From assembly GCF_007858475.1 (NCBI RefSeq), contig NZ_VIGX01000015.1, positions 31,485 to 95,484 of the forward strand: a stretch of DNA of 64,000 nt, in the 5' to 3' direction. A program made the translations under genes and the position numbers. Source of the stretch: Tsukamurella conjunctivitidis. GTDB taxonomy: Bacteria > Actinomycetota > Actinomycetes > Mycobacteriales > Mycobacteriaceae. How positions within the stretch are numbered: the stretch's first letter is position 1; every line of letters starts with the position of its first letter. The notes under the pieces are model-generated. The model ran no database searches. It was not told the DNA's origin and saw only the letters and a list, made by a program, of their open reading frames with translations. Shown one piece after another: positions 40,208 through 53,734 of the stretch.

Positions 40208-41881
<1,674 letters not shown>

Positions 41882-41888
41882 CGCAATA

Positions 41889-41893
41889 CCTCC
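41889..41893 (-). promoter_or_regulatory. Element-supplied ribosome-binding site for ettA
   Basis: GGAGG on the minus strand, seven bases upstream of GTG 41881. It lies outside the att core, so it belongs to the element, and it is a better Shine-Dalgarno than the one left at the original start (AGGG before GTG 53499). No clear -35/-10 pair is obvious in the 150 bases upstream. Confidence 0.72.
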
Positions 41894-42031
41894 GTGACCT
41901 GGTGTTACTTCGCCTCGTGCGGGCTGCGGGTTACTGATCTGCTACTGCGCTGCTCCGCGACCTGTCCATAAGTTGACCCTCGGAGCGCTGCCACGCTCAC
42001 GAGGGCCACAAGCAGAACGGATCTCCCCGTC

Positions 42032-42175
42032 ATGCCCATTGACCCCAGTCTACCCACCGCTGGTTCTGCGGCCCGCCTGGCATTGCGCAGGTTCCTCGGC
42101 GCGCTCACCTTCGTTACAGGCACCTACGTCGCCCTCTACGCGTTCGTATGGCTCGCCTGGGCGTGGTTCGCATGA
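42032..42175 (+). CDS. Small membrane protein, 47 residues
   Basis: ATG 42032 to TGA 42175. A polar N-terminus (MPIDPSLPTAGSAARLALRR) is followed by one long hydrophobic helix of about 25 residues ending LAWAWFA. No family is recognised. It reads rightward from the ettA end of the element and would be the first gene of the + strand unit that includes the Lsr2-like gene. The ribosome-binding site is weak, so expression is uncertain. Confidence 0.45.
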   Translation: MPIDPSLPTAGSAARLALRRFLGALTFVTGTYVALYAFVWLAWAWFA

Positions 42176-42225
42176 GCCTGCCCCTATCCCCCGCACCGAC
42201 CACCATCACCTCGAAAGGAACCGTC

Positions 42226-42558
42226 ATGACCACCACACCCGAGATCTCCTCCGCCGCGGACTCCCAGCTTCACGACGCCCTCGATGCCCTCATGCCGCAG
42301 CCCTACAACCTCACCCAGGAACAGATCGCGACCATCCGGGCTCAGGTCACCACATGGCTGGACGATGCGTGCGCACGGCTTACGCGCGAACTGCGCATCG
42401 AGCGCGACGGCGTGAAAGTCGCTCATTTCGGCGACGGGATGGTACACATCCTGATTGACGACACGCACGAGATATACGGCGTTCCGGTGCAAACGCTCCG
42501 CACTCTGGTCGAAGTCGGCGGTGAAATCCTGGCGATGTTGGACAAGTCGACCCAGTGA
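42226..42558 (+). CDS. Hypothetical protein, 110 residues
   Basis: ATG 42226 is chosen because AAAGGA lies seven bases upstream; a longer reading from 42148 lacks such a site and has a proline-rich N-terminus. The protein is soluble: an N-terminal helical region (QLHDALDALMPQPYNLTQEQ) and an alpha/beta part (ELRIERDGVKVAHFGDGMVHILIDDTHEIYGVPVQTLRTLVEVG). I do not recognise a family. It is 33 bases upstream of the Lsr2-like gene and probably co-transcribed. Confidence 0.6.
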   Translation: MTTTPEISSAADSQLHDALDALMPQPYNLTQEQIATIRAQVTTWLDDACARLTRELRIERDGVKVAHFGDGMVHILIDDTHEIYGVPVQTLRTLVEVGGEILAMLDKSTQ

Positions 42559-42591
42559 GTCGTTTCAGGCGCGGCTTGTACAGTTCACTGC

Positions 42592-42927
42592 ATGGCCCGC
42601 AAAGTAGTAGTCACCCTCACCGACGACATCGACGACACCCTCTCGGCAGACGAGACGGTGACCTTCGCAATCGACGGCGTTGAGTACGAGATCGACCTGA
42701 GCAAGAAGAATGCCGACAAGCTCCGCAAGGCCGTGGCCCCGTTCGTAGAGGCCGGCAGGAAGGTCAGCAGCCGCAAGCCGCGCGCCCGCACCAGCTCCAG
42801 CAGCAGCACACCTCTGGATCGCAAGCAGTCGAACGCGATTCGGCAGTGGGCGCGGGAGAATGGGCATACGGTGTCCGATCGTGGGCGTATCGCTCAGCCG
42901 GTGATTGACGCGTACAACGCCCGGTAG
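42592..42927 (+). CDS. Lsr2-family nucleoid-associated protein
   Basis: A 111-residue protein of normal Lsr2 length. The N-terminal dimerisation domain reads [25 protein letters not shown], then [28 protein letters not shown] serine-rich linker follows, and the C-terminal DNA-binding domain reads [29 protein letters not shown] with the RGR AT-hook-like minor-groove contact. Lsr2 silences AT-rich foreign DNA in actinobacteria. A copy on the element could keep its own AT-richer genes silent or interfere with helper-phage or host Lsr2 by mixed oligomers. A terminator follows directly. Confidence 0.88.
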
Positions 42928-42954
42928 CGTCGGGAGATCCCGATAACGACGAAT

Positions 42955-42987
42955 AGCGCCCCGCTCTGACTAACTGAGCGGGGCGCT
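42955..42987. terminator. Bidirectional terminator after the Lsr2-like gene
   Basis: Perfect 12-bp stem AGCGCCCCGCTC / GAGCGGGGCGCT with a 9-base loop, followed by TTCCGT. It separates the + strand Lsr2 unit from the convergent minus-strand operon ending at 42995. Confidence 0.88.
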
Positions 42988-42994
42988 TCCGTGT

Positions 42995-43216
42995 CTAGTT
43001 ACATGAAACTGACGACTTGTACGTGACGCATGACTTTGTCGTCGTGAAGGTGTCGTGCACCCTCAGGTGATCGGGCTTCGCGAACGGCTGCCACACCATC
43101 AATCCCGCGAAGATCAGGCCCGCGAACACGATCAGGGCTGCGACTACTACCGGCTGACGGTACAGAGGTACGGGGAGCATCTGCGGCGGGATGAACGGCG
43201 TGTTCGGGTTCGTCAT
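42995..43216 (-). CDS. Small single-pass membrane protein, 73 residues
   Basis: Proline-rich N-terminus (MTNPNTPFIPPQMLPVPLYR), one membrane helix (PVVVAALIVFAGLIFAGLMVW), then an extracytoplasmic-type tail with two cysteines (SCVTYKSSVSC) that could form a disulfide. Last gene of the minus-strand nucleotidyltransferase operon, 22 bases after the 44-residue ORF. No family is recognised. As the terminal gene of a possible defence operon it could be a membrane effector, but this is inference only. Confidence 0.6.
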   Translation of the reverse strand: MTNPNTPFIPPQMLPVPLYRQPVVVAALIVFAGLIFAGLMVWQPFAKPDHLRVHDTFTTTKSCVTYKSSVSCN

Positions 43217-43238
43217 GCGTGGAGATTACCAGCGTGCA

Positions 43239-43373
43239 TCACGAGTCGGGCCACTCCTCCGCGGTCACCTTCCGCCCCAACCACAGCGCAAGCCGCATAC
43301 GGTCATCCGCTCCTGGGTGAGCGCGTTCGAAGGCGTCGACCAGCTCATCGTCGGTTGGTTCCCGCTCGGTCAT
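43239..43373 (-). CDS. Small acidic protein, 44 residues
   Basis: ATG 43373 overlaps the stop of the upstream 297-residue gene (ATGA), a strong sign of translational coupling. The product begins MTEREPTDDELVDAFERA and ends TAEEWPDS; it is helical and acidic with one basic patch (RMRLALWLGRK). No family is recognised. Its place between the nucleotidyltransferase pair and the membrane protein makes it part of the same operon. Confidence 0.5.
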   Translation of the reverse strand: MTEREPTDDELVDAFERAHPGADDRMRLALWLGRKVTAEEWPDS

Positions 43374-44263
43374 TCGACGGCTGCGTCCGCCCTGATGGTC
43401 AAGAGTTTTCGCACCACCGAAACGTGTGCACGCATGGGGTGACTAGTGGACGTCTCCGCCCAGGTTGCAACAACATTCTCCGCCCACAAGGTGCGCAACT
43501 CCGTCGGCGACCATTTCCGGGCGTCGACCTTCACCGCCGTCTTCTTCCCTTGGGGCACGATCGCGATCTCACCGCCGGTCGAGATCGATGTAAGCTGGCC
43601 GCGCATTTCGACATCGATCGTCTTGACTGTGTCCACATCAAGCGTGTCTCGGAGTGCCCGAGCCGATTCCCGATCGAATCCCAACTTTCGCCTCGCGCCA
43701 CGAGGACGGGTCCAAGTCAGCTCCAAATCGACACGGCCGTCGATGATGCTCTTGGACAGCGCGTAGAGCTTCTTTCCAAGAGCCCCAGGAACCTCAAGCT
43801 GATCCGAATCGCTTGCCAAAACATCCAATAGTGCATCGATTGCCCCGTCGACCGGGGTGTCATCGATCTCGATGTCCAGTCTTTCCGCAGAAGGCGCCGG
43901 AGCGCTGTACAGCTCCAAGATCGTCGACCCGGCTTCGACTGTCGGGGAAAGGTACAATTTCGTTTCGGCACTGCTAAGATTGCGAAGGCTCGACCCTGCC
44001 TCGCTTACGGATTCAGAAATCGCTCCAATCACGTCAGCCGCGACGTCACCCTCAAGCGAGTTGCCGTTCACTCCCTCGCCGGTGAAGCGCAGCTTCAGAG
44101 AAGACCTGAACGACGGTTGCGCGAAGCCGAAATGTCTGGCAGCCCGCGCAACCTCAGACCGCGCGACTTCCTCAGACGACTCGAACGTCGGAAGGTCGAG
44201 GTCCTCGATCCGGCGTGCCAGCTCCGCGAGGTGGCGAGGGTCGGACGATCTACCTGTAGCCAT
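43370..44263 (-). CDS. Uncharacterised partner protein of the nucleotidyltransferase, 297 residues
   Basis: No family is recognised. The N-terminal ~50 residues are helical (PRHLAELARRIEDLDLPTF). The middle has a conserved-looking SLKLRFTGEGVNG strand pair and a GSTILELYSAPAPS strand. The C-terminal third looks like a small beta barrel (VDVEMRGQLTSISTGG, then IAIVPQGKKTAVKVDA). It starts 14 bases inside the end of the nucleotidyltransferase gene, so the two are made together, as toxin-antitoxin or defence pairs often are. A nucleic-acid- or partner-binding role is plausible but unproven. Confidence 0.6.
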   Translation of the reverse strand: MATGRSSDPRHLAELARRIEDLDLPTFESSEEVARSEVARAARHFGFAQPSFRSSLKLRFTGEGVNGNSLEGDVAADVIGAISESVSEAGSSLRNLSSAETKLYLSPTVEAGSTILELYSAPAPSAERLDIEIDDTPVDGAIDALLDVLASDSDQLEVPGALGKKLYALSKSIIDGRVDLELTWTRPRGARRKLGFDRESARALRDTLDVDTVKTIDVEMRGQLTSISTGGEIAIVPQGKKTAVKVDARKWSPTELRTLWAENVVATWAETSTSHPMRAHVSVVRKLLTIRADAAVE

Positions 44264-44780
44264 CGACTGTCACCTCCAAGTAGCCCCTCAACGGCATGGC
44301 GTGATGCCGCTGAGGGGGGTTGCGGTCAGGCTTCGGCACGTAGCGTTGCCAGAAGTCGTCCCACACGCCCCGCAGCTCGACGTAAGCGGGCTCCTGGCCG
44401 TACTGGGTCCCATCAGGGTGCCACGGGATCATGAACCCGTCCACGGCCAGCCCTGCACGCTTAGCTCCCGCAATCGTATTGGCAACCCGTTGTAGAGTTT
44501 CGGGTCGCCTTATGCGGGACGTGTCTACGATGATCGCCGCGTCGACATCGCTGGGTTCCATGGCGTCGGTCACGAAGCTCCCGCCAAGAAACACGGCAGG
44601 CACCTTCGCCTTCAAGTCCGCGATCAACGCCAGCAATGACTTGAAGTCCTCCCAGACCTCGGGACGCCTCGCCGAGTCACCGAACTCGCCGCTGAGTACA
44701 AACCGCTCTTCCACCTCATCCAGGCCAGCGCAGAACCGACCGCGCGGGAGCCAACCGTTGGCTTCGAGAGCAGGGATCAT
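44250..44780 (-). CDS. DUF6932-type nucleotidyltransferase-fold protein
   Basis: A 176-residue protein from ATG 44780 (AGGA seven bases upstream; a longer start at 44831 is possible). The N-terminus MIPALEANGWLPRGRF, the RRPEVWEDFKSLLALI helix and the active loop FLGGSFVTDAMEPSDVDAAIIVD match the DUF6932 pattern: GGS plus DxD of the polymerase-beta nucleotidyltransferase superfamily. Such enzymes may transfer nucleotides to tRNA or proteins, as in MNT-type antitoxins and AbiEii-like toxins. First of four co-directional overlapping genes; the partner gene overlaps it by 14 bases. Best candidate cargo of the element. Confidence 0.72.
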   Translation of the reverse strand: MIPALEANGWLPRGRFCAGLDEVEERFVLSGEFGDSARRPEVWEDFKSLLALIADLKAKVPAVFLGGSFVTDAMEPSDVDAAIIVDTSRIRRPETLQRVANTIAGAKRAGLAVDGFMIPWHPDGTQYGQEPAYVELRGVWDDFWQRYVPKPDRNPPQRHHAMPLRGYLEVTVDGYR

Positions 44781-44847
44781 GAGCAGAATCCTGCCATGAT
44801 CACCGCCCAAACTCATACAAACCGGGAGCAAGTCGACCTCCCAGGCT

Positions 44848-45585
44848 CTACTTGAGGGCGACCAACGACATGTTCGAGTTCGCGTCCGTCACTCCATCGC
44901 CCGCACCCTCCAACTTCTCCGCAGCAACCGCATACGCAACCGGCGCGAGGTCGTCCTCGATGCGCAGGTCAAACAGCCCCGAGTACCGCTGCCACACGTC
45001 GTGCCCCTTGCGGACCCGACCACCGCCGGCAGAGTTCCGCCCCCGCTCCGACGGCAGCGCATTAACCCGCAGGAGAGCGTTCTCCCAGACACGGACAGTG
45101 CTCCACTGGCCTGCCAACGTCCGGAACTCCTGCCACAGGTCCACCCGATCGTGAGTGATCGCATCCTCAGCGCTGAAGTGACCAACTTCTGGCGACAGCT
45201 CCAACCAGCGCGCATGAAGGTCGGCGCGGACCTTATCGATCGCCGAGCACGCAGCCTCCCCGTGGACAGCCAGACCCTGCCGCAACTCATGGAGGTGCGT
45301 ACCGGACACACGCGCAGCGATCTCGTCCAGCTTCGGAGCGTCCTCGCGAGCCTCGCGCAGAACATCATCGACATTCAGCTCGGTCGCCTTGAACTTGCTG
45401 ATCGCTGCGATCTCGCCCGCGAAATTGCGGATCTTGTTGAACTTGTCCTTCTCCGCCTTCACGCGGATTCCCAGCTGGTCGAGGGCATCGACGGCCTTGC
45501 GCACTTCACCGAGGTTAGTCGCGGTGACCTCGTAGACGGCGCGCGCGTGGTCCTGCGCGGTAATTACGTTGTGTCCCATGTCCAT
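44848..45585 (-). CDS. Uncharacterised helical protein, 245 residues
   Basis: ATG 45585 with AAGGA eight bases upstream. The product is mostly helical with long coiled-coil-like stretches (NLGEVRKAVDALDQLGIRVKAEKDKFNKIRNFAGEI) and a C-terminal region containing HDVWQRYSGLFDLRIEDDLAPVAYAVAAEKL. No family is recognised. It is 16 bases after the terminase-like gene on the same strand, so it belongs to that unit. Such a position could suit a packaging- or capsid-size-modifying protein in a satellite, but no sequence evidence supports this. Confidence 0.6.
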   Translation of the reverse strand: MDMGHNVITAQDHARAVYEVTATNLGEVRKAVDALDQLGIRVKAEKDKFNKIRNFAGEIAAISKFKATELNVDDVLREAREDAPKLDEIAARVSGTHLHELRQGLAVHGEAACSAIDKVRADLHARWLELSPEVGHFSAEDAITHDRVDLWQEFRTLAGQWSTVRVWENALLRVNALPSERGRNSAGGGRVRKGHDVWQRYSGLFDLRIEDDLAPVAYAVAAEKLEGAGDGVTDANSNMSLVALK

Positions 45586-45601
45586 ATTTCAATCCTTCTT
45601 G

Positions 45602-46030
45602 TTAGTCGAGGTTGCCGGCGAGGAAGTCTTCCATCCGCTGCCGATCCTCTAGTTCTTTCTGCAACTCTGCGATATGGTTCTGAATATCAATCCGCTCGCG
45701 GTGTTTATCAATCAGTTGTCCAGCTGGGCCGCGCTGTCGAGCTGACCGGTATTGTTCGAGCTTTGACACACCCAGGCTGTTGAAGATCCCTCGCAACGCC
45801 GTCGAAAGCTGCCGGAGTTCAGGGACAAGCGGGTTGCAAATCGTGTCCCCGCGCGCGTTCACCACAGTCAGCGGAGCACCCTCAAGAGCATCATTGATCC
45901 GTGCAGTCTGCTGCACAATCCTGCACGCTTCCAGCACCAGCGCAAGGTTCACATCATCAATAACGTAATGGGCGCTGAGAGCCACGTAGAGCGACTTTCC
46001 AGCCTCGCCCATGGTATCGGTTGGGTCCAT
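45602..46030 (-). CDS. Terminase small subunit-like protein (P27-type pattern)
   Basis: A 142-residue protein. The pattern GKSLYVALSAHYVIDDVNLALVLEACRIV, then VVNARGDTICNPLVPELRQL and a following FNSLGVSKLEQYRSARQR, matches P27-like small terminases (aromatic-rich first helix, ACR-type second helix, NPLVxELR, LGL-type end). A C-terminal coiled coil (DKHRERIDIQNHIAELQKELEDRQ) would support ring assembly. TerS selects the DNA to be packaged. There is no large-terminase gene nearby; satellites use exactly this arrangement to redirect helper packaging. It starts directly after the stop of the upstream HTH gene (TAG-ATG). Confidence 0.62.
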   Translation of the reverse strand: MDPTDTMGEAGKSLYVALSAHYVIDDVNLALVLEACRIVQQTARINDALEGAPLTVVNARGDTICNPLVPELRQLSTALRGIFNSLGVSKLEQYRSARQRGPAGQLIDKHRERIDIQNHIAELQKELEDRQRMEDFLAGNLD

Positions 46031-46276
46031 CTATGTGAGCCTCCAGATCGGCGCACACCACGTATCCGAGATGCGCACGATGAAGCCGTCACGCTCCAAC
46101 TCCGCCGCCGCGCGGAAAGCAGATGACCGAGACATGCCCGATATTCGCCCTACGTCCGTGAAGTCAGTCTCAGGCGTCACCCGATCCACCGCGATAGTCG
46201 CGAGCCCCAAATAGAGGCGCACCGCATTCGCAGTCAAAGGAGACCGCACCACATTCTTCAATCGATCATTCATCAT
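46031..46276 (-). CDS. Winged-helix DNA-binding protein, 81 residues
   Basis: ATG 46276 or 46273. The core SPLTANAVRLYLGLATIAVD, then TDFTDVGRISGMSRSSAFRAAAELERDGFIVRI, is a compact winged helix with recognition helix SRSSAFRAAAELER. Longer in-frame starts to 46396 would add an unlikely proline/arginine-rich N-terminus. It is immediately upstream of the terminase-like gene, with the start of one abutting the stop of the other, so it probably controls that operon or acts as a small initiator-like protein. Confidence 0.65.
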   Translation of the reverse strand: MMNDRLKNVVRSPLTANAVRLYLGLATIAVDRVTPETDFTDVGRISGMSRSSAFRAAAELERDGFIVRISDTWCAPIWRLT

Positions 46277-46538
46277 CGTTCCACTTCTTAAGTCCAATTC
46301 ATTCTTCCGCCCGAATACCGTTTTCCGCTTCGAAGCCGCAGGTGAATCGTCCCAGCTCCAAGGGCTGAATCCTGGCGTGCGGGGGCAGGCCGACACGCAA
46401 AGGAGTCGGTCACGAGGTTGGGGTCATGCCCTCCCCCCACCCATTCCCGTGACGGTCTTTTAGTGCTTGTGTTTGCGTGTGCCGGTGGGCTATTGTTGAT
46501 GTATTCCCATTCGCTTCTCCATCTCGGAGGTTCTTGCT
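46277..46538. promoter_or_regulatory. Divergent intergenic region
   Basis: About 260 bases between the minus-strand HTH-terminase operon and the + strand membrane-protein gene. It should hold both promoters. It includes the AT-rich stretch ttcttaagtccaattcattctt near 46282 and the Shine-Dalgarno TCGGAGG before 46539. No convincing longer gene is seen in it. Confidence 0.5.
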
Positions 46539-46784
46539 ATGCGCGCTATCATCGCCCTGGTTGTGGTCATCGCCGGCATCACGCTCACTCCCGATCTGGG
46601 CGCGTTCCTGCTTGGTGGTCTGGTGTTCGCTGGCGCGGGGTTCCTGCTGTTGCTCAGCGCCGGTGAGCGTCAAGAACGAGCCATCGTAAAGCGGACGCAG
46701 GAACAGTGTGTCGAGGATCTGAAAAACTACGCGGAAGGTTTTGCTGCCGGTCTTGCCGACGAGGGCGAACCGGTCGCCGCTTAG
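46539..46784 (+). CDS. Small two-helix membrane protein, 81 residues
   Basis: ATG 46539 with CGGAGG seven bases upstream. The first ~42 residues are hydrophobic, with a helical hairpin (AIIALVVVIAGITL and FLLGGLVFAGAGFLLLL). The C-terminal half is a charged cytoplasmic helix (GERQERAIVKRTQEQCVEDLKNYAEGF). No family is recognised; the size and layout recall holin-like or superinfection-exclusion proteins of phages. It converges on the minus-strand chain; the stop codons overlap by four bases. Confidence 0.6.
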   Translation: MRAIIALVVVIAGITLTPDLGAFLLGGLVFAGAGFLLLLSAGERQERAIVKRTQEQCVEDLKNYAEGFAAGLADEGEPVAA

Positions 46785-46933
46785 TCGATATCCCAGTCCT
46801 CGAAATAGCTCGGCCCCGGCCTGGGCTGGCGCAATCTGACATGCTCAGCGCCGAGGGATTCGAGCCATTCATATTCGGCCTTCATGACCTCGTCGATGGT
46901 CTTGTCGATATCGATTGGTTTCGGATTTCTCAT
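46781..46933 (-). CDS. Small acidic protein, 50 residues; last gene of the overlapping chain
   Basis: ATG 46933 lies inside the stop of the previous ORF (ATGA) and has AAAGGA upstream. The product begins MRNPKPIDIDKTIDEVMKAE and ends PSYFEDWDID. The WLESLGAEHVRLRQPRPG centre is conserved-looking, but I do not recognise it. Final gene of a minus-strand chain that starts at 49309. Confidence 0.55.
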   Translation of the reverse strand: MRNPKPIDIDKTIDEVMKAEYEWLESLGAEHVRLRQPRPGPSYFEDWDID

Positions 46934-47040
46934 CTGTTCCTTTCGAAGACTTCAAGCGCATCGCTCAAGGTGTCGATCAGCTTCCATGCTTCGGCGTAGG
47001 TGAGGGTTGTGCGTGCGTGCTGGGCCGTGATGGTGACCAT
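46930..47040 (-). CDS. Tiny protein, 36 residues
   Basis: ATG 47040 to TGA 46930. The product MVTITAQHARTTLTYAEAWK continues LIDTLSDALEVFERNR: a short strand plus one amphipathic helix. Its stop overlaps the next start by four bases, which supports it as real despite its size. There is a 20-base gap to the ORF before it. No function can be assigned. Confidence 0.45.
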   Translation of the reverse strand: MVTITAQHARTTLTYAEAWKLIDTLSDALEVFERNR

Positions 47041-47060
47041 GTGAGGGTGTTGGCTCAGAC

Positions 47061-47210
47061 CTACTGTGAGCAGTCGTGGTGCTGTACGTGTGCTGGAGAG
47101 GTGTTGTCCTCCGTGCGGATTCGTGAGTTGGATTGTTCTTCCTTTCCGCGCGAATTGAGGTTGTCAAGGAGCTGCGCCACGAGGGTGTGGAGCACCTGTG
47201 CGTCGGTCAC
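47061..47210 (-). CDS. Tiny protein, 49 residues
   Basis: GTG 47210 overlaps the stop of the preceding gene (GTGA). The product begins VTDAQVLHTLVAQLLDNLNS (helical) and has a polar, His-rich tail ending HVQHHDCSQ. No family is recognised. Support is positional: the coupling overlap and common direction within the chain. Confidence 0.42.
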   Translation of the reverse strand: MTDAQVLHTLVAQLLDNLNSRGKEEQSNSRIRTEDNTSPAHVQHHDCSQ

Positions 47211-47377
47211 TGGTCGCCGCGCTGGTCGTGCCTGCGCTGTGCGTCAAGAGCGGCCTGAAGCAGGTCGATGAGCCGAGGCACATCGTCGATGTGGACGACC
47301 GCCTTGCGGGTGGTGTCGATGGCTAGGGTGCGTTGTTCGCAGGAGTGCATGACTCGGGGCATGGGGTAGATGTTCAC
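47207..47377 (-). CDS. Small protein, 56 residues
   Basis: GTG 47377 overlaps the stop of the upstream gene (TGGTGAAC: stop TGA, start GTG). Product VNIYPMPRVMHSCEQRTLAI, then AVVHIDDVPRLIDLLQAALDAQRRHDQ: two strands and a helix. Resembles the compact proteins encoded either side of it (pattern strand-strand-helix of ~60 residues), so the small genes may be related by duplication. Function unknown. Confidence 0.5.
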   Translation of the reverse strand: MNIYPMPRVMHSCEQRTLAIDTTRKAVVHIDDVPRLIDLLQAALDAQRRHDQRGDQ

Positions 47378-47580
47378 CAGGTGCGTCCGGTGCGTGCGGG
47401 CGTGGAGATGTTCGGCGCGTCTGGCGGATGGAGGGCGTCTACGGCCGCGCGGAGCGTGTCCCACGAGGCCCCCGGCAGGTACACGGTCACTCCGTCCTGC
47501 GACAGCGCGATCCTCCCACTGGCGGTGAGGGCTACCGCGATGGGTTCGGTGTCAGTCTGTATTAGATACGAATACGTCAT
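47374..47580 (-). CDS. Small protein, 68 residues
   Basis: ATG 47580 overlaps the stop of the gene before (ATGA). Product MTYSYLIQTDTEPIAVALTA, then GRIALSQDGVTVYLPGASWDTLRAAVDAL: a beta-rich front and one helix, with a proline-rich C-terminus. Its GxTVYL-PGASWDTLRAAVDALH end parallels the VVHIDDVPRLIDLLQAAL end of the next small protein, suggesting shared ancestry. Function unknown. Confidence 0.52.
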   Translation of the reverse strand: MTYSYLIQTDTEPIAVALTASGRIALSQDGVTVYLPGASWDTLRAAVDALHPPDAPNISTPARTGRTW

Positions 47581-48065
47581 CGGAGGTTTCCAGTTCTACG
47601 TTGCAGCTTGGCTATATCAGCAAGGTCCGAGGCTCGCCACGAGCGCGAATTGCGTAGGTGTCCGTGCGTCCACCCGATTGTTACGCAGCCGTATTTGGTG
47701 CCAACAGTCTTAACGAGGTCAGAGCGTATGAGGATGCCCGATATTGTGTAAGTTTCGGAGCGTTTCGCAGTCGGCCACTGTTCGGTGTCAACATCGCTGA
47801 GGATGATGCCGCTTGCGGTGCCTATTGTGAGCGCGTGTACATGTCGTGAAATGTGCGGGAGTAGCGGCGTGTATTCGGGTACGAAGTGGATTCCGCAGGC
47901 GCAATCGATGCTGATTCCGCCGTGGGCACACTCAGCATTATTTATGCGCTGGGGGTTGTTGAAGGCGGATTGGCGGTCTAGGCGTTGTTGTGGAGTCGGT
48001 TCTGTTCGGTAGGCCGGCGGCACGAGAGCCGTTCCGTCGACTAGCCAGATTCTCCACCCGATCAC
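47577..48065 (-). CDS. Cys/His-motif protein, second of a tandem pair (162 residues)
   Basis: Starts MIGWRIWLVDGTALVPPAYR. The centre has NNAECAHGGISIDCACGIHFV, a Cys-x-His...Cys-x-Cys-x2-His cluster that could bind zinc. After it comes a region ending SETYTISGILIRSDLVKTV that pairs with RTERYTITGMIAPERFQKAL of the upstream gene. The two are paralogues. A similar C-x-CG motif occurs in actinobacterial and actinophage proteins that I cannot name. Start and stop overlap both neighbours by four bases. Confidence 0.6.
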   Translation of the reverse strand: MIGWRIWLVDGTALVPPAYRTEPTPQQRLDRQSAFNNPQRINNAECAHGGISIDCACGIHFVPEYTPLLPHISRHVHALTIGTASGIILSDVDTEQWPTAKRSETYTISGILIRSDLVKTVGTKYGCVTIGWTHGHLRNSRSWRASDLADIAKLQRRTGNLR

Positions 48066-48544
48066 TGGATTGCCGTGAGCTGGTCAACGATCGTTGCGAG
48101 CTGCGGGACACTGTTGGGTAGAATGCCCATAATGTGCGGCCTGCCCGTTATCCCTGGCAGTACCGGCACAGCGAACCGCGACATGAGGGCTTTCTGAAAT
48201 CGTTCGGGGGCGATCATTCCGGTTATTGTGTAGCGTTCGGTGCGGTATTCGTGTCCCCCGTAGAGTTGAATGGGGATTGCGCCGGGCAGGACGATGTCGC
48301 CTGGGATTCCTGAGGTGAGCACAACATCATCTTGCAGTGCTACGAATCCGCCGAGTAGTACCCATGGGTCGTCCATGTAGTGAAGCCCGCATTTGCAGTT
48401 TTCGGTGATGCCGCCGTGTTCGCATTCGGCGTATGCTGTCGGGTTTGCGAGGTGGTCGACGATGTTGCCTTCGAGTTGTCGGACGGGTGATGAGAGGTGT
48501 CCGGTTTCGTCGACGTTCCAGAGTCGCCATGCGTGGGTTGTCAT
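48062..48544 (-). CDS. Cys/His-motif protein, first of a tandem pair (160 residues)
   Basis: ATG 48544 overlaps the stop of the HTH gene before it (ATGA). The product starts MTTHAWRLWNVDETGHLSSP, and the motif is AYAECEHGGITENCKCGLHYM followed by a beta-rich region (GDIVLPGAIPIQLYGGHEYRTERYTITGMI). It aligns along its length with the next gene product, so the pair arose by tandem duplication and has diverged. Possible zinc-binding or nucleic-acid-related role; not established. Confidence 0.6.
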   Translation of the reverse strand: MTTHAWRLWNVDETGHLSSPVRQLEGNIVDHLANPTAYAECEHGGITENCKCGLHYMDDPWVLLGGFVALQDDVVLTSGIPGDIVLPGAIPIQLYGGHEYRTERYTITGMIAPERFQKALMSRFAVPVLPGITGRPHIMGILPNSVPQLATIVDQLTAIQ

Positions 48545-48762
48545 TGTGTTGCTCCTTCGGTCTGGTGCCATGCGATCCCGGCGGGTGTGGCGATGTAGCC
48601 GTGCGCGTCGAGGTGCACGGCGTATCCGTGGAGTCGGAGCCAGCCCAGCACGGTTGCCGTCACGATGTCGGAGATACCGAGGATGTCGGCTAGCTCGGCG
48701 AGGTGGCGCGGTCGGGTAGCGATGAGCGGTATCAACTCACGGCGGTGATCTCGGGTAGTCAT
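48541..48762 (-). CDS. Winged-helix DNA-binding protein, 73 residues
   Basis: Starts MTTRDHRRELIPLIATRP. The core RHLAELADILGISDIVTATVLGWLRLHGYAVHLDAHGYIATPAG has a helix-turn-helix followed by a wing and is similar in layout to the 78-residue protein at the head of the chain. ATGA overlap with the gene before it and 4-bp overlap with the gene after it. Likely a small regulator of the chain or of helper-phage genes. Confidence 0.6.
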   Translation of the reverse strand: MTTRDHRRELIPLIATRPRHLAELADILGISDIVTATVLGWLRLHGYAVHLDAHGYIATPAGIAWHQTEGATQ

Positions 48763-49076
48763 AGTTCCTCCGGCGCAGCGCTGCCTTCAGCGATATCCAC
48801 GAGCATGTTCGCGAGCGGCACCAGCTCGGAATGCTGGACCTTGACGTGGAAATCTCCTCGGCGCAGTTCGTAGTCCGTATCGCCGCGAGTGATCCTCAAA
48901 GGAAAAACGTTCTCCCTGAGGGCGTCGTTTTTTTCCGCGCGTCGGATGTGATGGCCAAGGAGGAGGCGAGCGACTTGCTCGGCTTCTGTTCGGGTTCTGG
49001 TGATGAGGTGTCGGCCGTCGGGGTGTTCGACTCGGCAGCCGCGTCCTCGGTTGGCGGCGGACACGGTGAAGGTCAC
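48759..49076 (-). CDS. Uncharacterised protein, 105 residues
   Basis: Starts MTFTVSAANRGRGCRVEHPD. The sequence is beta-rich with basic residues (DGRHLITRTRTEAEQVARLLLGHHIRRAEK, then YELRRGDFHVKVQHSELVPLANMLVDIAEG). No family is recognised. Its basic character would suit nucleic-acid binding. Overlaps both neighbouring genes by four bases. Confidence 0.55.
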   Translation of the reverse strand: MTFTVSAANRGRGCRVEHPDGRHLITRTRTEAEQVARLLLGHHIRRAEKNDALRENVFPLRITRGDTDYELRRGDFHVKVQHSELVPLANMLVDIAEGSAAPEEL

Positions 49077-49309
49077 CGGCTCAGCTCCGAGAGGTGTGCG
49101 CGACCCGCGTCAGTGATGACGTAGCGTCCCCGCACGACGCGCTCAGCCAGACGCTCCCTCACCAACAGGGCGAGAATGGAAGGCACCGAGCCGTGAGCGA
49201 GGACCACCGCCGCCGCTACATCATCGGTCGTGAAGACCGTGCCAGGCGGATGCGCTGCAAGAGCGGCCAGAACATGCCGAGGCCCGCTCTGATCGATGTT
49301 CAAGCTCAT
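49073..49309 (-). CDS. Winged-helix DNA-binding protein, 78 residues; first gene of the chain
   Basis: ATG 49309 with TTGGAGA upstream. The product reads MSLNIDQSGPRHVLAALAAH, then FTTDDVAAAVVLAHGSVPSILALLVRERLAERVVRGRYVITDAG: a three-helix HTH and a short wing. It heads the chain of overlapping genes and lies just past two hairpins that separate the chain from repA. It could autoregulate the chain. Confidence 0.62.
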   Translation of the reverse strand: MSLNIDQSGPRHVLAALAAHPPGTVFTTDDVAAAVVLAHGSVPSILALLVRERLAERVVRGRYVITDAGRAHLSELSR

Positions 49310-49349
49310 GATGGATCTCCAAATCTACTGAATAAGAAGGTTTCTCACC

Positions 49350-49403
49350 CCCTAAGCTCGCTTAGGGTCGAGGGGGTCCAGGGGGCGGCGATCCGCCCCC
49401 TGG
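49350..49403. terminator. Two hairpins between repA-like gene and the small-gene chain
   Basis: CCCTAAG-CTCG-CTTAGGG at 49350-49367 and the stronger CCAGGGGGCGG-CGAT-CCGCCCCCTGG (11-bp perfect stem) at 49378-49403. Both lie downstream of the repA-like gene on the minus strand, so they likely end its transcript; the chain must then have its own promoter near 49310-49350. Confidence 0.7.
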
Positions 49404-49467
49404 AATGCGCTCGCCGCGCGGGCGTTCACCCGCAAGAGCAGCGGGCGAACAGTGTGTTCTTCTCGAT

Positions 49468-49520
49468 GTACCTGTACCCGTGCACACCCGCCTATCGGAT
49501 GTACCCGGGTACACGAGTAC
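49468..49520. repeat. Iteron cluster B (GTACCCG family), downstream of the repA-like gene
   Basis: GTACC at 49468, GTACCCG at 49474, and the perfect 14-bp palindrome TGTACCCGGGTACA at 49500-49513, with a further GTAC at 49517. The same 7-mer recurs on the other side of the repA-like gene. Adjacent to the repA-like stop codon at 49528. Confidence 0.7.
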
Positions 49521-49527
49521 GTGGGGT

Positions 49528-50508
49528 CTACGCAGCCTCTTGATCGACACCAAGTCGGTACGCGTCCAAAGCTTTCTGGGCGCGTGCCTGCCCCACGTGC
49601 AGATACTCCTTGACTTCGCGAACGGTGTTGAAGTCGAAACCTGCGTCCCGGAGCTTGGCGGCATCGCCGGTGGCTCGGTCACGTACCGGACGGTCCTGCT
49701 TGGCCGCTGCCTTCGTGGTCATGCTCTCGATCTCCCAATCGACGCCTTCATGGCCGTCTGCTGCCGGGGTGAGGGTGAAGCGTCCGACTACCGGTTCCCC
49801 GCCGCCGGCATCTGTGGCGAAGTTCCTCCGAACGCCGCCGTGGCGGTCCTTGTTCAGCTGCAACTTGGCGGAGCCGCCCATACCTGGCGCGAACGGGCGT
49901 TCAACGGTGACGCGGACTGAGAGGCCGCCGACAGCGCGGCGCTTCGCAGCCGTTCCGCCAGGTCCCATCGCACGAGAGTCAGCGTTCTTCGCGAGGTGAT
50001 CCACGACCACTACGGCAATGCCAGCAGCGGTGAGCGGCTTGATGACGTCCTTGTGGACAAGGGTGAAGTCGTCGGCGGAGTTCGAGGACGCCCCGTAGAG
50101 GGGCATGATCTCGCCGAGGCTGTCGAGAACAACCAGTTCCGGTTCCCAGTCGAGGAGATCCTGAACCACGGCATCGAGATCGATCTTGTCGAGTGGCTCG
50201 TAGAGGCGGAAGAGGTCGGGGTCGCTGAGGTCGGATGCATCGGTGCCGAGGTTGAGAAGGCGGGACAGGGTGGAGTCGGCTCCGTTGTGGTCCAGGTCGA
50301 TCACTGCTGCCCCGTCACCGTTGGTGAGGGTTTCGGTCACAGCGGCTAGGCACAGCCAGGTCTTCCCGCACTCAGCGTCACCGTAAACGAGGTTCAGTTC
50401 TCCCGAATAGAAGAGGGGGTGTCCGCCCGCGGTGGTCAGGATCGTCGGCGCGGGCGGGTTGAAGTTGCCCGCGAGGCGTCGGGCGACATCGACGTAAACA
50501 GAAGTCAT
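49528..50508 (-). CDS. RepA/RecA-like hexameric helicase-type ATPase
   Basis: A 326-residue protein. Walker A is GDAECGKT (residues 43-50), preceded by the ELNLVYG strand; Walker B is ELVVLDSLGEIM; a motif-3-type strand is AGIAVVVVDHLAKN. This is the AAA_25/RepA RecA-fold family used by plasmids and phages as replicative helicase or loader. The C-terminal ~50 residues add a helix-turn-helix-like domain (DFNTVREVKEYLHVGQARAQKALDAY). GAGGGA lies before ATG 50508. Iterons on both sides suggest that it works at an adjacent origin, as satellite Rep proteins do. Confidence 0.78.
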   Translation of the reverse strand: MTSVYVDVARRLAGNFNPPAPTILTTAGGHPLFYSGELNLVYGDAECGKTWLCLAAVTETLTNGDGAAVIDLDHNGADSTLSRLLNLGTDASDLSDPDLFRLYEPLDKIDLDAVVQDLLDWEPELVVLDSLGEIMPLYGASSNSADDFTLVHKDVIKPLTAAGIAVVVVDHLAKNADSRAMGPGGTAAKRRAVGGLSVRVTVERPFAPGMGGSAKLQLNKDRHGGVRRNFATDAGGGEPVVGRFTLTPAADGHEGVDWEIESMTTKAAAKQDRPVRDRATGDAAKLRDAGFDFNTVREVKEYLHVGQARAQKALDAYRLGVDQEAA

Positions 50509-50544
50509 TGTTGTCCCTCATGAAAAGTTCGAGTTGGAAGCCTT

Positions 50545-50603
50545 GTACCCGTGTACTCGGGTACGCCCGAAGCCCGGGTTGACACGGGTACGGGTACAGG
50601 TAC
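50545..50603. repeat. Iteron cluster A (CGGGTAC / GTACCCG), upstream of the repA-like gene
   Basis: Copies: GTACCCG 50545, GTACTCG 50553, CGGGTAC 50558, CGGGTAC 50585, CGGGTAC 50591 (sharing one base with the previous copy) and AGGTAC 50598. They form inverted and direct arrays within 59 bases, just upstream of the repA-like start. Confidence 0.78.
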
Positions 50604-50765
50604 GAAGCCTGATTAGGGAGTATGATTCGGCGATGGCCGAGAATTGGACGCCTTTCGAAAACGTCCTTACATACTAAGTATATCAGTTCCCACTGTAAGC
50701 GATATCTGCTAGCAAATTCGGCGATACTGAACCCTCACAGACCAGGTCGGGAGCATCATCAGAGC
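50604..50765. other. AT-rich stretch next to iterons: putative unwinding region of an origin
   Basis: The stretch around 50667-50685 (cttacatactaagtatatc) and the following 50 bases are clearly more AT-rich than anything nearby. It includes the near-palindrome ATACTAAGTAT. Iterons on one side and AT-rich DNA on the other is the layout of a Rep-dependent origin. It must also contain the promoter of the + strand gene at 50766 and possibly that of the repA-like gene. Confidence 0.5.
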
Positions 50766-51008
50766 ATGAACAGAAACGACCTCAAACCACTCAAGCCCGA
50801 ACCACCACACAAGCCACGAGCACAGGCCCACGGAGGCGAACTATTCCAGATCCTCCAATGGGTCTTCGTCGCAATTGCAGCGATCACCGCGATCACAAGC
50901 CAGGGCAACGAGATGCAGATCTACTCGGCGATCGGCATCCTCTTCATCGCGCTCTGGTGCGCCGCCGTCTTCCAGATCATCCGCGCTATCACGGGGAGCC
51001 GGTCATGA
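50766..51008 (+). CDS. Small two-helix membrane protein, 80 residues
   Basis: ATG 50766. A polar, proline/lysine-rich N-terminus (MNRNDLKPLKPEPPHKPRAQ) precedes two hydrophobic helices (LFQILQWVFVAIAAITAI and IYSAIGILFIALWCAAVFQIIRAI) with a short QGNEMQ loop. No family is recognised. It is one of four small membrane proteins on the element and is read in the direction opposite to the replication genes. The next ORF overlaps its stop by four bases. Confidence 0.62.
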   Translation: MNRNDLKPLKPEPPHKPRAQAHGGELFQILQWVFVAIAAITAITSQGNEMQIYSAIGILFIALWCAAVFQIIRAITGSRS

Positions 51009-51121
51009 CGATCAGATTCACTGCCCGCGAGATGACGCCGCCTGGAACCCGCGCGCACGAGGCCATCACACGCCTGCACTGGGTGGGGTCCGGTAAATTT
51101 ACCGGACCCCTCAAGCGGTGA
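51005..51121 (+). CDS. Short DUF3892-like protein, 38 residues
   Basis: ATG 51005 overlaps the stop of the membrane protein gene (ATGA). The product MTIRFTAREMTPPGTRAHEA, then ITRLHWVG, resembles the first half of DUF3892 proteins found in phages (HExITxLxW). It then ends early with SGKFTGPLKR, encoded by a large perfect palindrome. It is either a natural short form or a gene truncated by a terminator-like insertion. Confidence 0.48.
   Translation: MTIRFTAREMTPPGTRAHEAITRLHWVGSGKFTGPLKR
51085..51110. repeat. Perfect 26-bp palindrome
   Basis: GGGGTCCGGTAAA followed directly by its exact complement; there is no spacer. It overlaps the last codons of the DUF3892-like gene and precedes TCAAGCGG. 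It could be a transcription terminator for the two + strand genes or a binding site for a dimeric protein. Confidence 0.88.
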
Positions 51122-51148
51122 CGCCCGCGATAAGGCCGCCGAGACGCT

Positions 51149-51337
51149 TCAACGCCCCTGCATCCAGGCATGCACATCGGATTCGAGGTACCGGTAGTCA
51201 CCGTGACGTCCCTGCCGGCAGGACTTGAGCCCCTTGCGTCCGCGGGTCGACTTGTACTGCCTCGCCGCGTTGTGAATGGTCTTCTCGTGATACCCGGTGA
51301 GTGCGCAGACCTCCCGCGTCGTCAGGTACCGATCCAT
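51149..51337 (-). CDS. Small HTH protein (AlpA/MerR-like), 62 residues
   Basis: ATG 51337 with AGGGGGC upstream; longer in-frame starts to 51544 look non-coding. The product MDRYLTTREVCALTGYHEKT, then IHNAARQYKSTRGRKGLKSCRQGRHGDYRYLESDVHAWM, is a one-domain winged HTH of the type used as excisionase or phage regulator; the final RYLESDVHAWM is the usual strand-helix end. It differs from the usual pattern by a basic insert (STRGRKGLKSCRQGRHG). Likely a regulator or recombination directionality factor. Confidence 0.7.
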   Translation of the reverse strand: MDRYLTTREVCALTGYHEKTIHNAARQYKSTRGRKGLKSCRQGRHGDYRYLESDVHAWMQGR

Positions 51338-51426
51338 GCACGCCCCCTGCTCTGCTGCCGCCACGATCCTCGTCAGCATGAACGCCCGGTAGCGGCCCGT
51401 CAAGCCCCACCGTCTCGAATTGACCA

Positions 51427-51512
51427 GTATGGCAACAACTTCCATACGAGTGGGGCACGGCGGATACCGCCGTTGTGGTTGGCTGCCGTAAGCGCCTTCC
51501 GCAACGCGTTGC
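51427..51512. promoter_or_regulatory. Inverted repeats upstream of the small HTH gene
   Basis: GTATGG at 51427-51432 pairs with CCATAC at 51442-51447, and GCAACGCGTTGC at 51501-51512 is a perfect 12-bp palindrome. Both lie in the 241-base gap between the two small HTH genes and are plausible operators. No gene is convincingly present in this gap. Confidence 0.45.
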
Positions 51513-51578
51513 GACACTTCCGCCTCCGTCGCCATAGTGCGCAAAATCCAGAAGTTGGAAACTTGCGCGACCGGTTGA

Positions 51579-51746
51579 TCACCTCAGCAAGTGGGCCGTC
51601 TCCCATCGCCTAAGCCCCTCAAACGGATACCTGTACGCCCGCCCGATCTTCACACACGGTATGCGCCCCGCCTTCGCCATGCCGAGAACGGTCGCAGGAT
51701 TGACCTGCCAACGACCGGCCACCTGCTCCGTCGTCAAGAACTCCAA
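51579..51746 (-). CDS. AlpA/excisionase-type HTH_17 protein, 55 residues
   Basis: Start TTG 51746, chosen because AAGGGG lies seven bases upstream and LEFLTTEQVAGRWQVNPATV is the usual N-terminus of helix-turn-helix excisionase-family proteins; longer in-frame starts extend through a tryptophan-poor, basic stretch. The rest reads LGMAKAGRIPCVKIGRAYRYPFEGLRRW, the canonical recognition helix and wing. It probably serves as Xis or as a regulator of the integrase region. It is 480 bases downstream of the integrase stop on the same strand. Confidence 0.75.
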   Translation of the reverse strand: MEFLTTEQVAGRWQVNPATVLGMAKAGRIPCVKIGRAYRYPFEGLRRWETAHLLR

Positions 51747-51980
51747 AGCTGTTCCCCTTGTGCTCAACTCGACTCGAATGCCGATGAGGAGAACGCTATA
51801 CCCGGCTACGCCCTCCAGCCGTCCACACAACGTCTTGCGGCTGTCATGTTCGCGAACACGCCGTTACGGGGCGGGGAAACCGCAGGACACGCCGTAGGTG
51901 CGACACGCCGACGATGGCTGCTCCAGACCGCGGGTATGCCGGGTGACAATCTTTCCAGCTCCGGAAGTGATCGCCACACC

Positions 51981-52062
51981 CCAGGAAGTGTTGATAGCAC
52001 TTCCTGGCCGAGCACAGGTGCGTCATTGTACGCACCTGTTTCAGGTGGCCCAGTTTGGGCCA
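51981..52062. repeat. Three successive perfect inverted repeats
   Basis: CCAGGAAGTG-7 nt-CACTTCCTGG (51981-52007), ACAGGTGCGT-6 nt-ACGCACCTGT (52014-52039) and TGGCCCA-3 nt-TGGGCCA (52046-52062). They fill most of 82 bases upstream of the AlpA-like gene. They could be operators, excisionase or integrase arm sites, or an RNA leader with stacked hairpins. Confidence 0.85.
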
Positions 52063-52246
52063 GGTGAGGCCACATCCCGATTCACAGTCTCCCGTGAGAC
52101 GTTCGAGGCGTCCGCGATGGCGCGGCTAGTCCGCAGTAGCCCCGCGCACAGTGCTCAATCAACTGGGGAAATCGGAAGCGTATTCCGAAATCCCACTCGA
52201 CAGCAGAAGCGAGTTCAACGACAGCCTCACGACAGGTCCAGCGCAT
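52041..52246 (-). pseudogene. Possible degraded HTH gene
   Basis: Downstream of the integrase, a frame from ATG 52246 (MRWTCREAVVELASAVEW) overlaps the integrase 3' end. In the next frame the sequence TSRAIADASNVSRETVNRDV, a clear helix-turn-helix recognition pattern, runs to a stop at 52041. The two would join by a one-base shift near 52125. It may be a broken regulator gene; no intact start leads into the HTH frame. Confidence 0.3.
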
Positions 52247-53303
52247 CGACAGCAGCCCTCGTAGCCGCGTGCTCCCCCGGCCAAAGATGCGAATACACCT
52301 CCAACGTAATCGTCGGCGACGAATGCCCCAACAACTCCGACACAGCCACCGGCGACCGCCCAGCCTCAATCAACGCGCTCGCGTAGAAGTGCCGCAGCGA
52401 CTTCAGACTGTGTCCCTCAACGCCCGCTTTCTTCGCGGCACGCCGCCACAACGCCCCCAGCCTCGGCGTCGAGTACATCCGACCAAGCTCCGTCAAGAAC
52501 AACGGCTCCCCCGCCGTCCCATCCTCCACGCGCGACCGCAGCAGCTCAATCGTTGCCTGCCCAAGCGGCACAACCCGCCGAGCCTGCGGAGTCTTAGGAG
52601 CCTTCCACCCCCAGTCGCCGTAATGTCCGTCGGCCTGCTCGGTGATCCGAACAACCCCCTTGTCCAGATCAACTGATCGCACTCGAAGACCGCAGACCTC
52701 CCCCGGCCTCAAGCCGGTCAGCGCCATCATCCTGATCATCGTCCGAACCGGTTCCTCTGCCGCCCCTGCAACAGCACGAACTTCTGCCGCCGTGATTAGC
52801 TCGTGCGGCTCCACCGTTATCGACGCACCCGGCACCCGTCGAACTCCCTTCACGGGGTTCCGGGGTATGTGCCCCTTCGAGACCGCTTCGTTGAAGATCG
52901 CGGAGAGGATCGACATCAGTGTGTTGACGGTGGTCCTTGCGAGTGGCTTTCCGTCTGCCCAGGGGCGGCCTGTCACAAGCGTGTCTCGCCATCTGGTCAC
53001 GTCTTCCGGGCGGACTGTGTCGAGCGGCTTCCACTCAAGGTCACCGAGGTTTTCGAGCAGGTGCTTTCGTGTGAGCCTCGCTCCGGTTGTAGCGGCGTCC
53101 GACAGGTGCGCCTCGACGGCCTTACGGACGGGGTCGCGATCGGGCCTTCCGGTCAGGTCGCTCTTCGCGGCTTCACGCTCTCGAATCCATGTCTTGGCCG
53201 CCCTCTCGTTGGTGAAGCTCTTGGCTGTCTGCTTGCCGGCGAGGGAGACGCGTGCGACGTATCGGACGTTCCCGTTGCGTTCCGTGCGACTGATTGAACC
53301 CAT
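52227..53303 (-). CDS. int: Tyrosine recombinase (phage integrase)
   Basis: A 358-residue protein. N-terminal arm-binding region (RTERNGNVRYVARVSLAGKQ), SAM-like core-binding domain (about residues 60-150) and catalytic domain. Active-site residues: R199 in LTGLRPGEVC, R304 in KSLRHFYASA (the usual histidine three residues before it is K301), H327 in LLGHSSP and the nucleophile Y337 in TITLEVYSHL. It recombines the element with the ettA attachment site. It is the rightmost gene, 172 bases from the right att core and read away from it, as is usual for integrative elements. Confidence 0.92.
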   Translation of the reverse strand: MGSISRTERNGNVRYVARVSLAGKQTAKSFTNERAAKTWIREREAAKSDLTGRPDRDPVRKAVEAHLSDAATTGARLTRKHLLENLGDLEWKPLDTVRPEDVTRWRDTLVTGRPWADGKPLARTTVNTLMSILSAIFNEAVSKGHIPRNPVKGVRRVPGASITVEPHELITAAEVRAVAGAAEEPVRTMIRMMALTGLRPGEVCGLRVRSVDLDKGVVRITEQADGHYGDWGWKAPKTPQARRVVPLGQATIELLRSRVEDGTAGEPLFLTELGRMYSTPRLGALWRRAAKKAGVEGHSLKSLRHFYASALIEAGRSPVAVSELLGHSSPTITLEVYSHLWPGEHAATRAAVDALDLS

Positions 53304-53312
53304 GGAGGGAGT

Positions 53313-53340
53313 GTAGTAACGGTTCCTGTCTGGTTACTAC
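53313..53340. promoter_or_regulatory. Inverted repeat at the integrase promoter
   Basis: GTAGTAAC-12 nt-GTTACTAC, perfect, 10-37 bases upstream of the integrase start codon. The spacing suits an operator for an autoregulating integrase, excisionase or repressor. Confidence 0.6.
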
Positions 53341-53454
53341 CCTCAGTTGCGATCGGTTGAAGCAAACCGCTGTCGGATCAGTAGATGGATCTCGCCAAAG
53401 AGTGTGTTGAACTGGGGCTTAATGCCAGCCTATTGACGTTCAGGCTGCAGGCTG

Positions 53455-53499
53455 TTAAGACTGTTCTAGGAGCTGCATGGTGTAGATGAACTCAGCCAC
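53455..53499 (-). pseudogene. Orphaned 5' end of ettA (14-codon remnant ORF)
   Basis: GTG GCT at 53499-53494 followed by the att core encodes VAEFIYTM, the standard EttA start. It then runs into element sequence as QLLEQS and stops at TAA 53455. This is the original host start with its host leader upstream (53500 onwards), now cut off from the gene body. It may still be transcribed and translated as a 14-residue leader-like peptide toward the integrase. Confidence 0.8.
53476..53494. repeat. Right attachment-site core
   Basis: catggtgtagatgaactca, identical to 41858-41876. Right of it lies host DNA: the natural codon 2 (GCT, Ala) and GTG start of ettA and its leader. Left of it begins element DNA (agctg before the core). 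Confidence 0.92.
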
Positions 53500-53734
53500 A
53501 GTCCCTGCCCTGTCTCACGCGAAAACGACCCACCGGTGTGCCGGGGGCAAACGACTCCAGACTACCGACACCTGTCCGCGCGCGGCCACGGGACCGGCGC
53601 GCGGACCGGGCTCCGCGGCCGCGCCGATGCCTCATCGCATCGATTGGCACGTAACAAGCGGGCCTTAAGGACCGAACGACACAGTAGGAGCACGGTGACT
53701 GGGGAGTGACCGTCGGACCGTATTCGGCCATGGG
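53500..53734. promoter_or_regulatory. Host intergenic DNA: old ettA leader and polyketide gene promoter
   Basis: About 235 bases between the stranded ettA start and the polyketide synthase. The left part is the former ettA upstream region (read leftward); the right part should hold the promoter of the biosynthetic operon. No gene or clear hairpin is seen. Confidence 0.5.

Follow-up and report, generated by a model that had tools for sequence, protein, structure and literature searches.

In the 64,000-nucleotide stretch of the Tsukamurella conjunctivitidis genome analysed here (the window), the gene ettA, which encodes the ABC-F protein EttA, lies at one end of an 11.6-kb stretch that we call element A and read as an integrative element attached within the first codons of the gene. 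Both ends are marked by an exact 19-bp direct repeat, CATGGTGTAGATGAACTCA, of which no third copy occurs in the window at up to 3 mismatches (Table 1). Read on the coding strand, the near copy directly follows GTG AGT, with its start base at 41881, and the far copy directly follows GTG GCT, with its start base at 53499; GTG 41881 is the earliest start codon of ettA past the preceding in-frame stop. The native leader found beyond the far copy carries a -10-like TAGTCT at 53564-53559. An initial annotation, made from the letters of the window, had placed the repeat at ettA codons 3-8 and again 11.6 kb away, with GTG GCT at the far copy and GTG AGT plus an upstream Shine-Dalgarno (SD) sequence at the near one, and on all these points our reading agrees with it.

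Table 1. The ettA locus and element A (window positions; att, attachment site; int, integrase gene; HTH, helix-turn-helix; ORF, open reading frame)
Feature	Positions	Strand	Remarks
ettA (ABC-F protein EttA)	40208..41881	minus	557 codons; starts GTG AGT GAG, first codons element-derived
Near att core	41858..41876	minus	ettA codons 3-8
Shine-Dalgarno GGAGGT	41888..41893	minus	element-supplied; 6 nt from GTG
44-codon ORF	41905..42039	minus	in element DNA, ends 23 nt ahead of ettA; candidate leaderless first cistron
GGTAGACTGG	42045..42054	minus	candidate -10 (TAGACT) of an element promoter for ettA
136-aa ORF	42148..42558	plus	no family match; divergent from ettA; relative in G010
Lsr2-family nucleoid protein	42592..42927	plus	xenogeneic silencer, in element A
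PDC-M63B-like protein	43370..44263	minus	weak match to candidate defence protein, E 4e-4
DUF6932 protein	44250..44831	minus	nucleotidyltransferase-like; matches candidate defence protein PDC-M63A, E 1.1e-8
Terminase small subunit	45602..46030	minus	phrog_1496, E 8.6e-15; Pfam match weak
AAA_25 (RecA-like) ATPase	49528..50508	minus	E 3.9e-11
HTH_17 protein	51149..51544	minus	excisionase-like
Second excisionase-like HTH protein	51579..51830	minus	relatives in G010, G054, G133, G168, G177
Tyrosine integrase	52227..53303	minus	adjoins far core
Displaced native ettA start	53455..53499	minus	now a closed 14-codon minigene, MAEFIYTMQLLEQS and stop
Far att core	53476..53494	minus	
Native ettA leader	53500..53570	minus	like the leader at empty sites of 10 sister species; now reads toward int

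Empty and occupied sites in Tsukamurella

All 16 genomes of the genus, one per species, were searched with EttA (G000 being the genome of the window). In ten of them (G002, G003, G005, G008, G009, G011, G012, G021, G022 and G023) an uninterrupted GTG GCT GA(A/G) TTC comes right after one conserved leader, the same that lies past the far copy in the window, and in the five empty loci with longer flanks (G003, G011, G021, G022 and G023) the flanks of the window adjoin and the 11.6-kb insert is absent. Single-core GTG-GCT sites in sisters lacking the element had been predicted in the initial annotation, whose proposal of site-specific integration at codons 3-8 is borne out by these empty loci; its proposed swap of the start codon, ribosome-binding site and upstream DNA of ettA is likewise supported, as is the rebuilding of EttA with only Ala2 changed to Ser. 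That the repeat is due to chance or to an old duplication, the 11.6 kb being ordinary host DNA, is practically out of the question, as two matches arose in none of 100 dinucleotide shuffles and the five sister loci with both flanks adjoining refute it.

Four of the 16 genomes are occupied, by three different elements: G000 and G010 carry variants of element A, G001 carries element B and G004 element C. Other DNA lies upstream of ettA in G006 and G007, which were counted as neither empty nor occupied. In every occupied genome of the genus, element DNA provides the start of ettA, whose native start lies with its leader at the far end, 10-12 kb away. The supplied starts read GTG AGT GAG TTC ATC in A, ATG TCA GAG CGT TTC ATT in B and GTG GCA GAG TTT ATC in C.

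Recurrence of the site in genomes, phages and viral contigs

The pattern SARTWYATHTAYWSNATG was searched in 401 genomes of the family and matched in 335, twice or more in 16 (our own row count); the reversed pattern, used as a control, was found in a single row (G197). Nine genomes have same-strand copies separated by 10-45 kb, one copy being followed by ettA, namely G000, G004, G010 and six of other genera (G350, G293, G177, G168, G054 and G133); in G293 the ettA copy breaks off at a contig end after 36 codons. Together with G001, which was recognised by alignment, the site is occupied in at least 10 of the 401 genomes, a lower bound because the pattern had no match in 66 of them and matched only one of the two copies of G001. 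The other seven of the 16 were not accepted as occupied: the matches lie 128 kb to 2 Mb apart in G080, G161, G198 and G386, 57 kb apart in G273, where the second is not a start, on opposite strands in G289 and on different contigs in G401 (loci opened: G080, G273 and G401). In G350, an IS3-like transposase (recognised by eye) lies just ahead of ettA, which starts TTG there (L120 13001-13822).

The integrase is the only gene common to the ten elements (A, its variant and B to I), and an excisionase-like protein recurs in six. Further genes are shared by A and its variant, by E and I and by G and H, the remaining cargo being mostly different. In nine of the ten, int adjoins the far core and reads the same way as the displaced ettA promoter (the longest int ORF of G overlaps the core), the exception being B, with its integrase mid-element. 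Host ettA transcription may in this way feed int, although an integrase gene beside the attachment site of an element (attP) is a common arrangement anyway.

Among phages, the closest integrases (46% identical) are those of the Gordonia phages Octobien14, Kudefre, Sephiroth and Syleon. The two that were opened, Octobien14 and Kudefre, have ATG GAA TAC ATC TAC ACG ATG ahead of int, and the Rhodococcus phage ReT1v-1 has GTG GCT GAG TTT ATC TAC ACG ATG after int; similar cores occur beside an integrase in the IMG/VR contigs L092 and L103. Octobien14, Kudefre and ReT1v-1 resemble the elements in having related integrases (46%, 46% and 37% identical) beside an in-frame ettA-like start, but they are phages of 42-77 kb, the first two encode MEYIYTM instead of MxEFIYTM, and in ReT1v-1 int flanks the core from the opposite side and its product branches elsewhere in the integrase tree. 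In ReT1v-1, L092 and L103 int comes before the core, opposite to the nine elements just described. A scan with the integrase alignment returned T. sputi (95% identical integrase) and one distant match among genome contigs, and one distant match among viral contigs. The 5.1-kb stretches opened of two phages with related integrases, Corynebacterium phage SamW and Rhodococcus phage Sleepyhead, contain no ettA-like core. The integrase of Sleepyhead is 36% identical, and this phage is also predicted to rebuild its target gene, but the predicted target is a gene for an acyl-CoA dehydrogenase, at its 3' end (PMC13313380).

A tree was built from 34 integrases, 17 of them labelled as ettA-site and 17 controls (of which only Sleepyhead's has a site of its own that is known to us). 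In it, 12 ettA-site integrases (A, its variant, B to I, Octobien14 and Kudefre) form one group with support 96/93 and no control inside. ReT1v-1 (together with L092), L103 and two gammaproteobacterial sequences, the last two on long branches that make their positions unsure, fall outside, and the ettA-site label requires 5 changes on the tree. Of seven representatives of this group, six have GTCAA beginning 35-39 bases past the core and B has TTGAC instead, and neither motif follows the core in ReT1v-1 or L103; GTCAA is likely an arm site of the integrase. In the gammaproteobacterial IMG/VR contigs L093, L094, L097, L099, L104, L106 and L108, int ends 28 nt ahead of the ettA start, a possible independent use of the site; none of the six such records searched has a second core at up to 3 mismatches. 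On these comparisons, codons ~3-8 of ettA are a recurrent attachment site whose attP carries an in-frame start.

Reading frame, start signals and closing stops

Codons 3-7, as supplied by the element and as native, were aligned by hand in eight element-host pairs, leaving out codons 1-2, one extra codon on the element side in B and I and one on the native side in D. They show nine differences, eight of which fall at third positions (P 0.001), so that the supplied segment behaves as translated, which argues against a start at ATG 41860. Translation of EttA from this internal ATG regardless of the upstream DNA, an objection foreseen in the initial annotation, would render the start swap irrelevant, and the codon, the last of the core, is indeed left intact; as the differences ahead of it are mostly synonymous, and each of the ten integrated cases has an in-frame start codon, preceded in seven by an SD match 5 or 6 bases long, we consider such translation very improbable.

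Seven of the nine native starts examined lack an SD match. The native ATG of G293, G177, G168 and G054 lies six or seven bases past TAGGCT, and because this spacing fits that of leaderless mycobacterial genes, in which TANNNT is centred 7-12 bases ahead of the start site according to the available part of PMC3898074, ettA is apparently leaderless in these four hosts, where it would become an SD-led gene starting with GTG. Element A has TAGACT at 42052-42047, seven bases ahead of the 44-codon ORF and in a stretch almost identical in G010; it is a candidate promoter for ettA, no more. GGTAGRCTGG occurs once in the window, and 13 of 100 shuffles have one. Neither the native leader (z 0.94) nor that of the element (z 0.84) folds better than shuffles.

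A further regularity concerns the other half of the exchange. The ettA frame was followed past the core ATG in 19 far-side or free cores. In 14 of them it closes at a stop after 0-9 codons, namely in the ten integrated elements (6, 4, 4, 2, 0, 2, 2, 1, 1 and 9), Octobien14 (1), Kudefre (0), ReT1v-1 (0) and L103 (1). Against a null built on each sequence's own base composition, which replaced an earlier one that sampled partly coding DNA, the summed stop distance has a P of 1.5e-5 for ten representatives and of 2.5e-5 or 5e-6 (two simulations) for nine. In the two remaining frames the mean distance is 12 and 19 codons (with a ceiling of 24), versus 2.7 in the ettA frame. Our reading is that the early stop prevents translation begun at a displaced or free start from running on into int or other genes of the element.

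We consider it very probable that an 11.6-kb integrative element, which is most likely a phage satellite, recombines its attP with the chromosomal site (attB) at ettA codons ~3-8, attP working as a portable translation start. The tyrosine integrase of the element would join both sites, attP bringing a leader, an SD sequence, a start codon and in-frame codons for M-x-E-F-I-Y-T-M and, past the crossover, closing with an early in-frame stop, so that the circle would hold a short closed ORF. Integration would swap this stop for the body of ettA, the start signals of the element would then drive EttA, and the native promoter, leader and start would be moved 11.6 kb away and closed as a minigene ahead of int. 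The sequence itself shows the exchange and its reading frame, the empty sites, the recurrent use of the site and the early stops.

Several points weigh against this proposal. Excision with formation of a circle is something we infer, as is transcription of ettA from an element promoter, of which sigma-70 scans found none (other promoter types were outside the scan). In B, C and I the SD match is a weak one of 4 bases that arises easily by chance, and Octobien14, Kudefre and ReT1v-1 would integrate at ettA as judged from attP alone. Regarding the stops, five other viral contigs reach theirs after 19 codons (L098 and L105) or 24 (L095, L101 and L102), P becomes 0.0013 when L098 and two gammaproteobacterial contigs (three families of later-stop contigs) are added and is 0.002 for the six integrated representatives alone, the pattern was noticed before testing, and most elements belong to one integrase group.

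It has also to be considered whether the element profits from controlling EttA, a throttle of translation, once freed of host regulation. In favour of such an adaptive rewiring, the conserved native leader is lost, an apparently leaderless start is replaced by an SD-led one in G293, G177, G168 and G054, and in an M. tuberculosis reporter leaderless translation held up better under stress, according to PMC8485053. Preservation of ettA alone would nevertheless yield the same anatomy, the change in expression is presumed, the four hosts represent one genus and one integrase subgroup, and element-supplied signals at dusA lowered expression in E. coli, in the available part of PMC8409611. Adaptive rewiring seems to us quite unlikely. 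Selection would presumably keep EttA made and the element might control the gene, yet simple preservation of a useful gene fits the data equally well as element control. A wider version of the portable start, which we put forward tentatively as possible but less than probable, would have phages and satellites of several integrase lineages dock widely at the first codons of ettA, with an attP evolved as a closed-minigene toggle that would give a ~7-18-residue peptide in the circle and EttA in the lysogen; in leaderless hosts EttA, a key energy-sensing translation factor, would pass to an SD-led start and its control to the element, and the host ettA promoter would feed int.

The rebuilding of a 5' end with a new promoter is already known for SXT at prfC and for islands at dusA, according to the available parts of the sources (PMC8409611, PMC4482086, PMC4344509), and the ettA elements share with them a tyrosine integrase beside one att site (except in B), flanking direct repeats, an empty site in relatives and an element-supplied in-frame start. 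As far as these texts describe them, the SXT/R391 integrative and conjugative elements also enter the 5' end of a translation-factor gene, prfC, encoding release factor RF3 (PMC4344509), but they are conjugative elements of ~100 kb with another target gene and host group. Islands and prophages at dusA (PMC4482086; IMEVchUSA3, PMC8409611) likewise have imperfect direct repeats and replace the 5' end of the gene by element sequence, the new promoter and restored frame having been tested by lacZ fusion; they differ in the gene, and the available descriptions contain no closing-stop pattern. No report of ettA as an integration target, that of Octobien14 included, was found in the literature searched, subscription journals being largely outside it, and as far as this literature goes the target, its breadth, the closing stops and the leaderless-to-SD change are new. 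After prfC, ettA is a second gene for a translation factor whose start mobile elements take over, and the many examples and available laboratory phages go with a concrete, testable question: are genes of translation control chosen for a regulatory benefit, or only as conserved genes that need rebuilding? As a simple signature, the early closing stops could be of use in locating 5'-end attachment sites elsewhere.

Gene content and nature of the elements

Element A is likely a phage satellite, in our best reading. It has a packaging gene, the small terminase, without a full virion set, no phrog_2 (large terminase) or PF05065 (capsid) match being found inside, with other virion families covered only through the 20 ORFs scanned. 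None of the ten elements has a phrog_2 match at E 0.001, and the sole PF05065 match within them at this threshold is in C, which has an HK97-type capsid and a weak scaffold match; H has a small terminase. Phage-inducible chromosomal islands and satellites are similar in size to nine of the ten elements (10-13 kb; F, in G177, has 44.6 kb) and in the integrase, excisionase-like HTH, ATPase and small terminase of A. They differ in that gene content varies widely among the ettA elements. In this line, small actinobacterial elements under 15 kb have been suggested as satellites, in the accessible part of PMC10023795.

A chromosomal island, or a conjugative element resembling the actinomycete integrative and conjugative elements, could also be small, encode a RecA-like ATPase and lack a capsid match, as A does, and element B may be a plain island, having protein-kinase matches and, in the five of its ORFs compared with Pfam, no phage gene other than the integrase. 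For A we regard this origin as rather unlikely, given the small terminase in A and in H, the capsid and weak scaffold match in C and the lack of any relaxase or FtsK/TraB among the scanned ORFs of A; for the FtsK/TraB-like translocase the scan covered 10 of its ORFs against Pfam, including all five picked ORFs of at least 190 aa.

Besides these features, the capsid gene of C (L055 12475-14382), with no large-terminase match inside the element, marks a possible capsid-bearing satellite in Tsukamurella. The genome of the window has two other small terminases, one of them beside a large terminase (G000:C221:573641-574865), a possible helper prophage, of which this is only suggestive. The candidate defence pair PDC-M63A/B of element A (43370-44831), one member of which is weak, has the same matches in element H, from another genus (L125 4711-6290). 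Region 42548-42964, around the Lsr2 gene, is 95% identical in G010, and the middle of element A has diverged. Directly past the element, large ORFs resembling polyketide/nonribosomal peptide synthases by eye occupy 53735-63663 of the window, in a flank that is alike in sister species.

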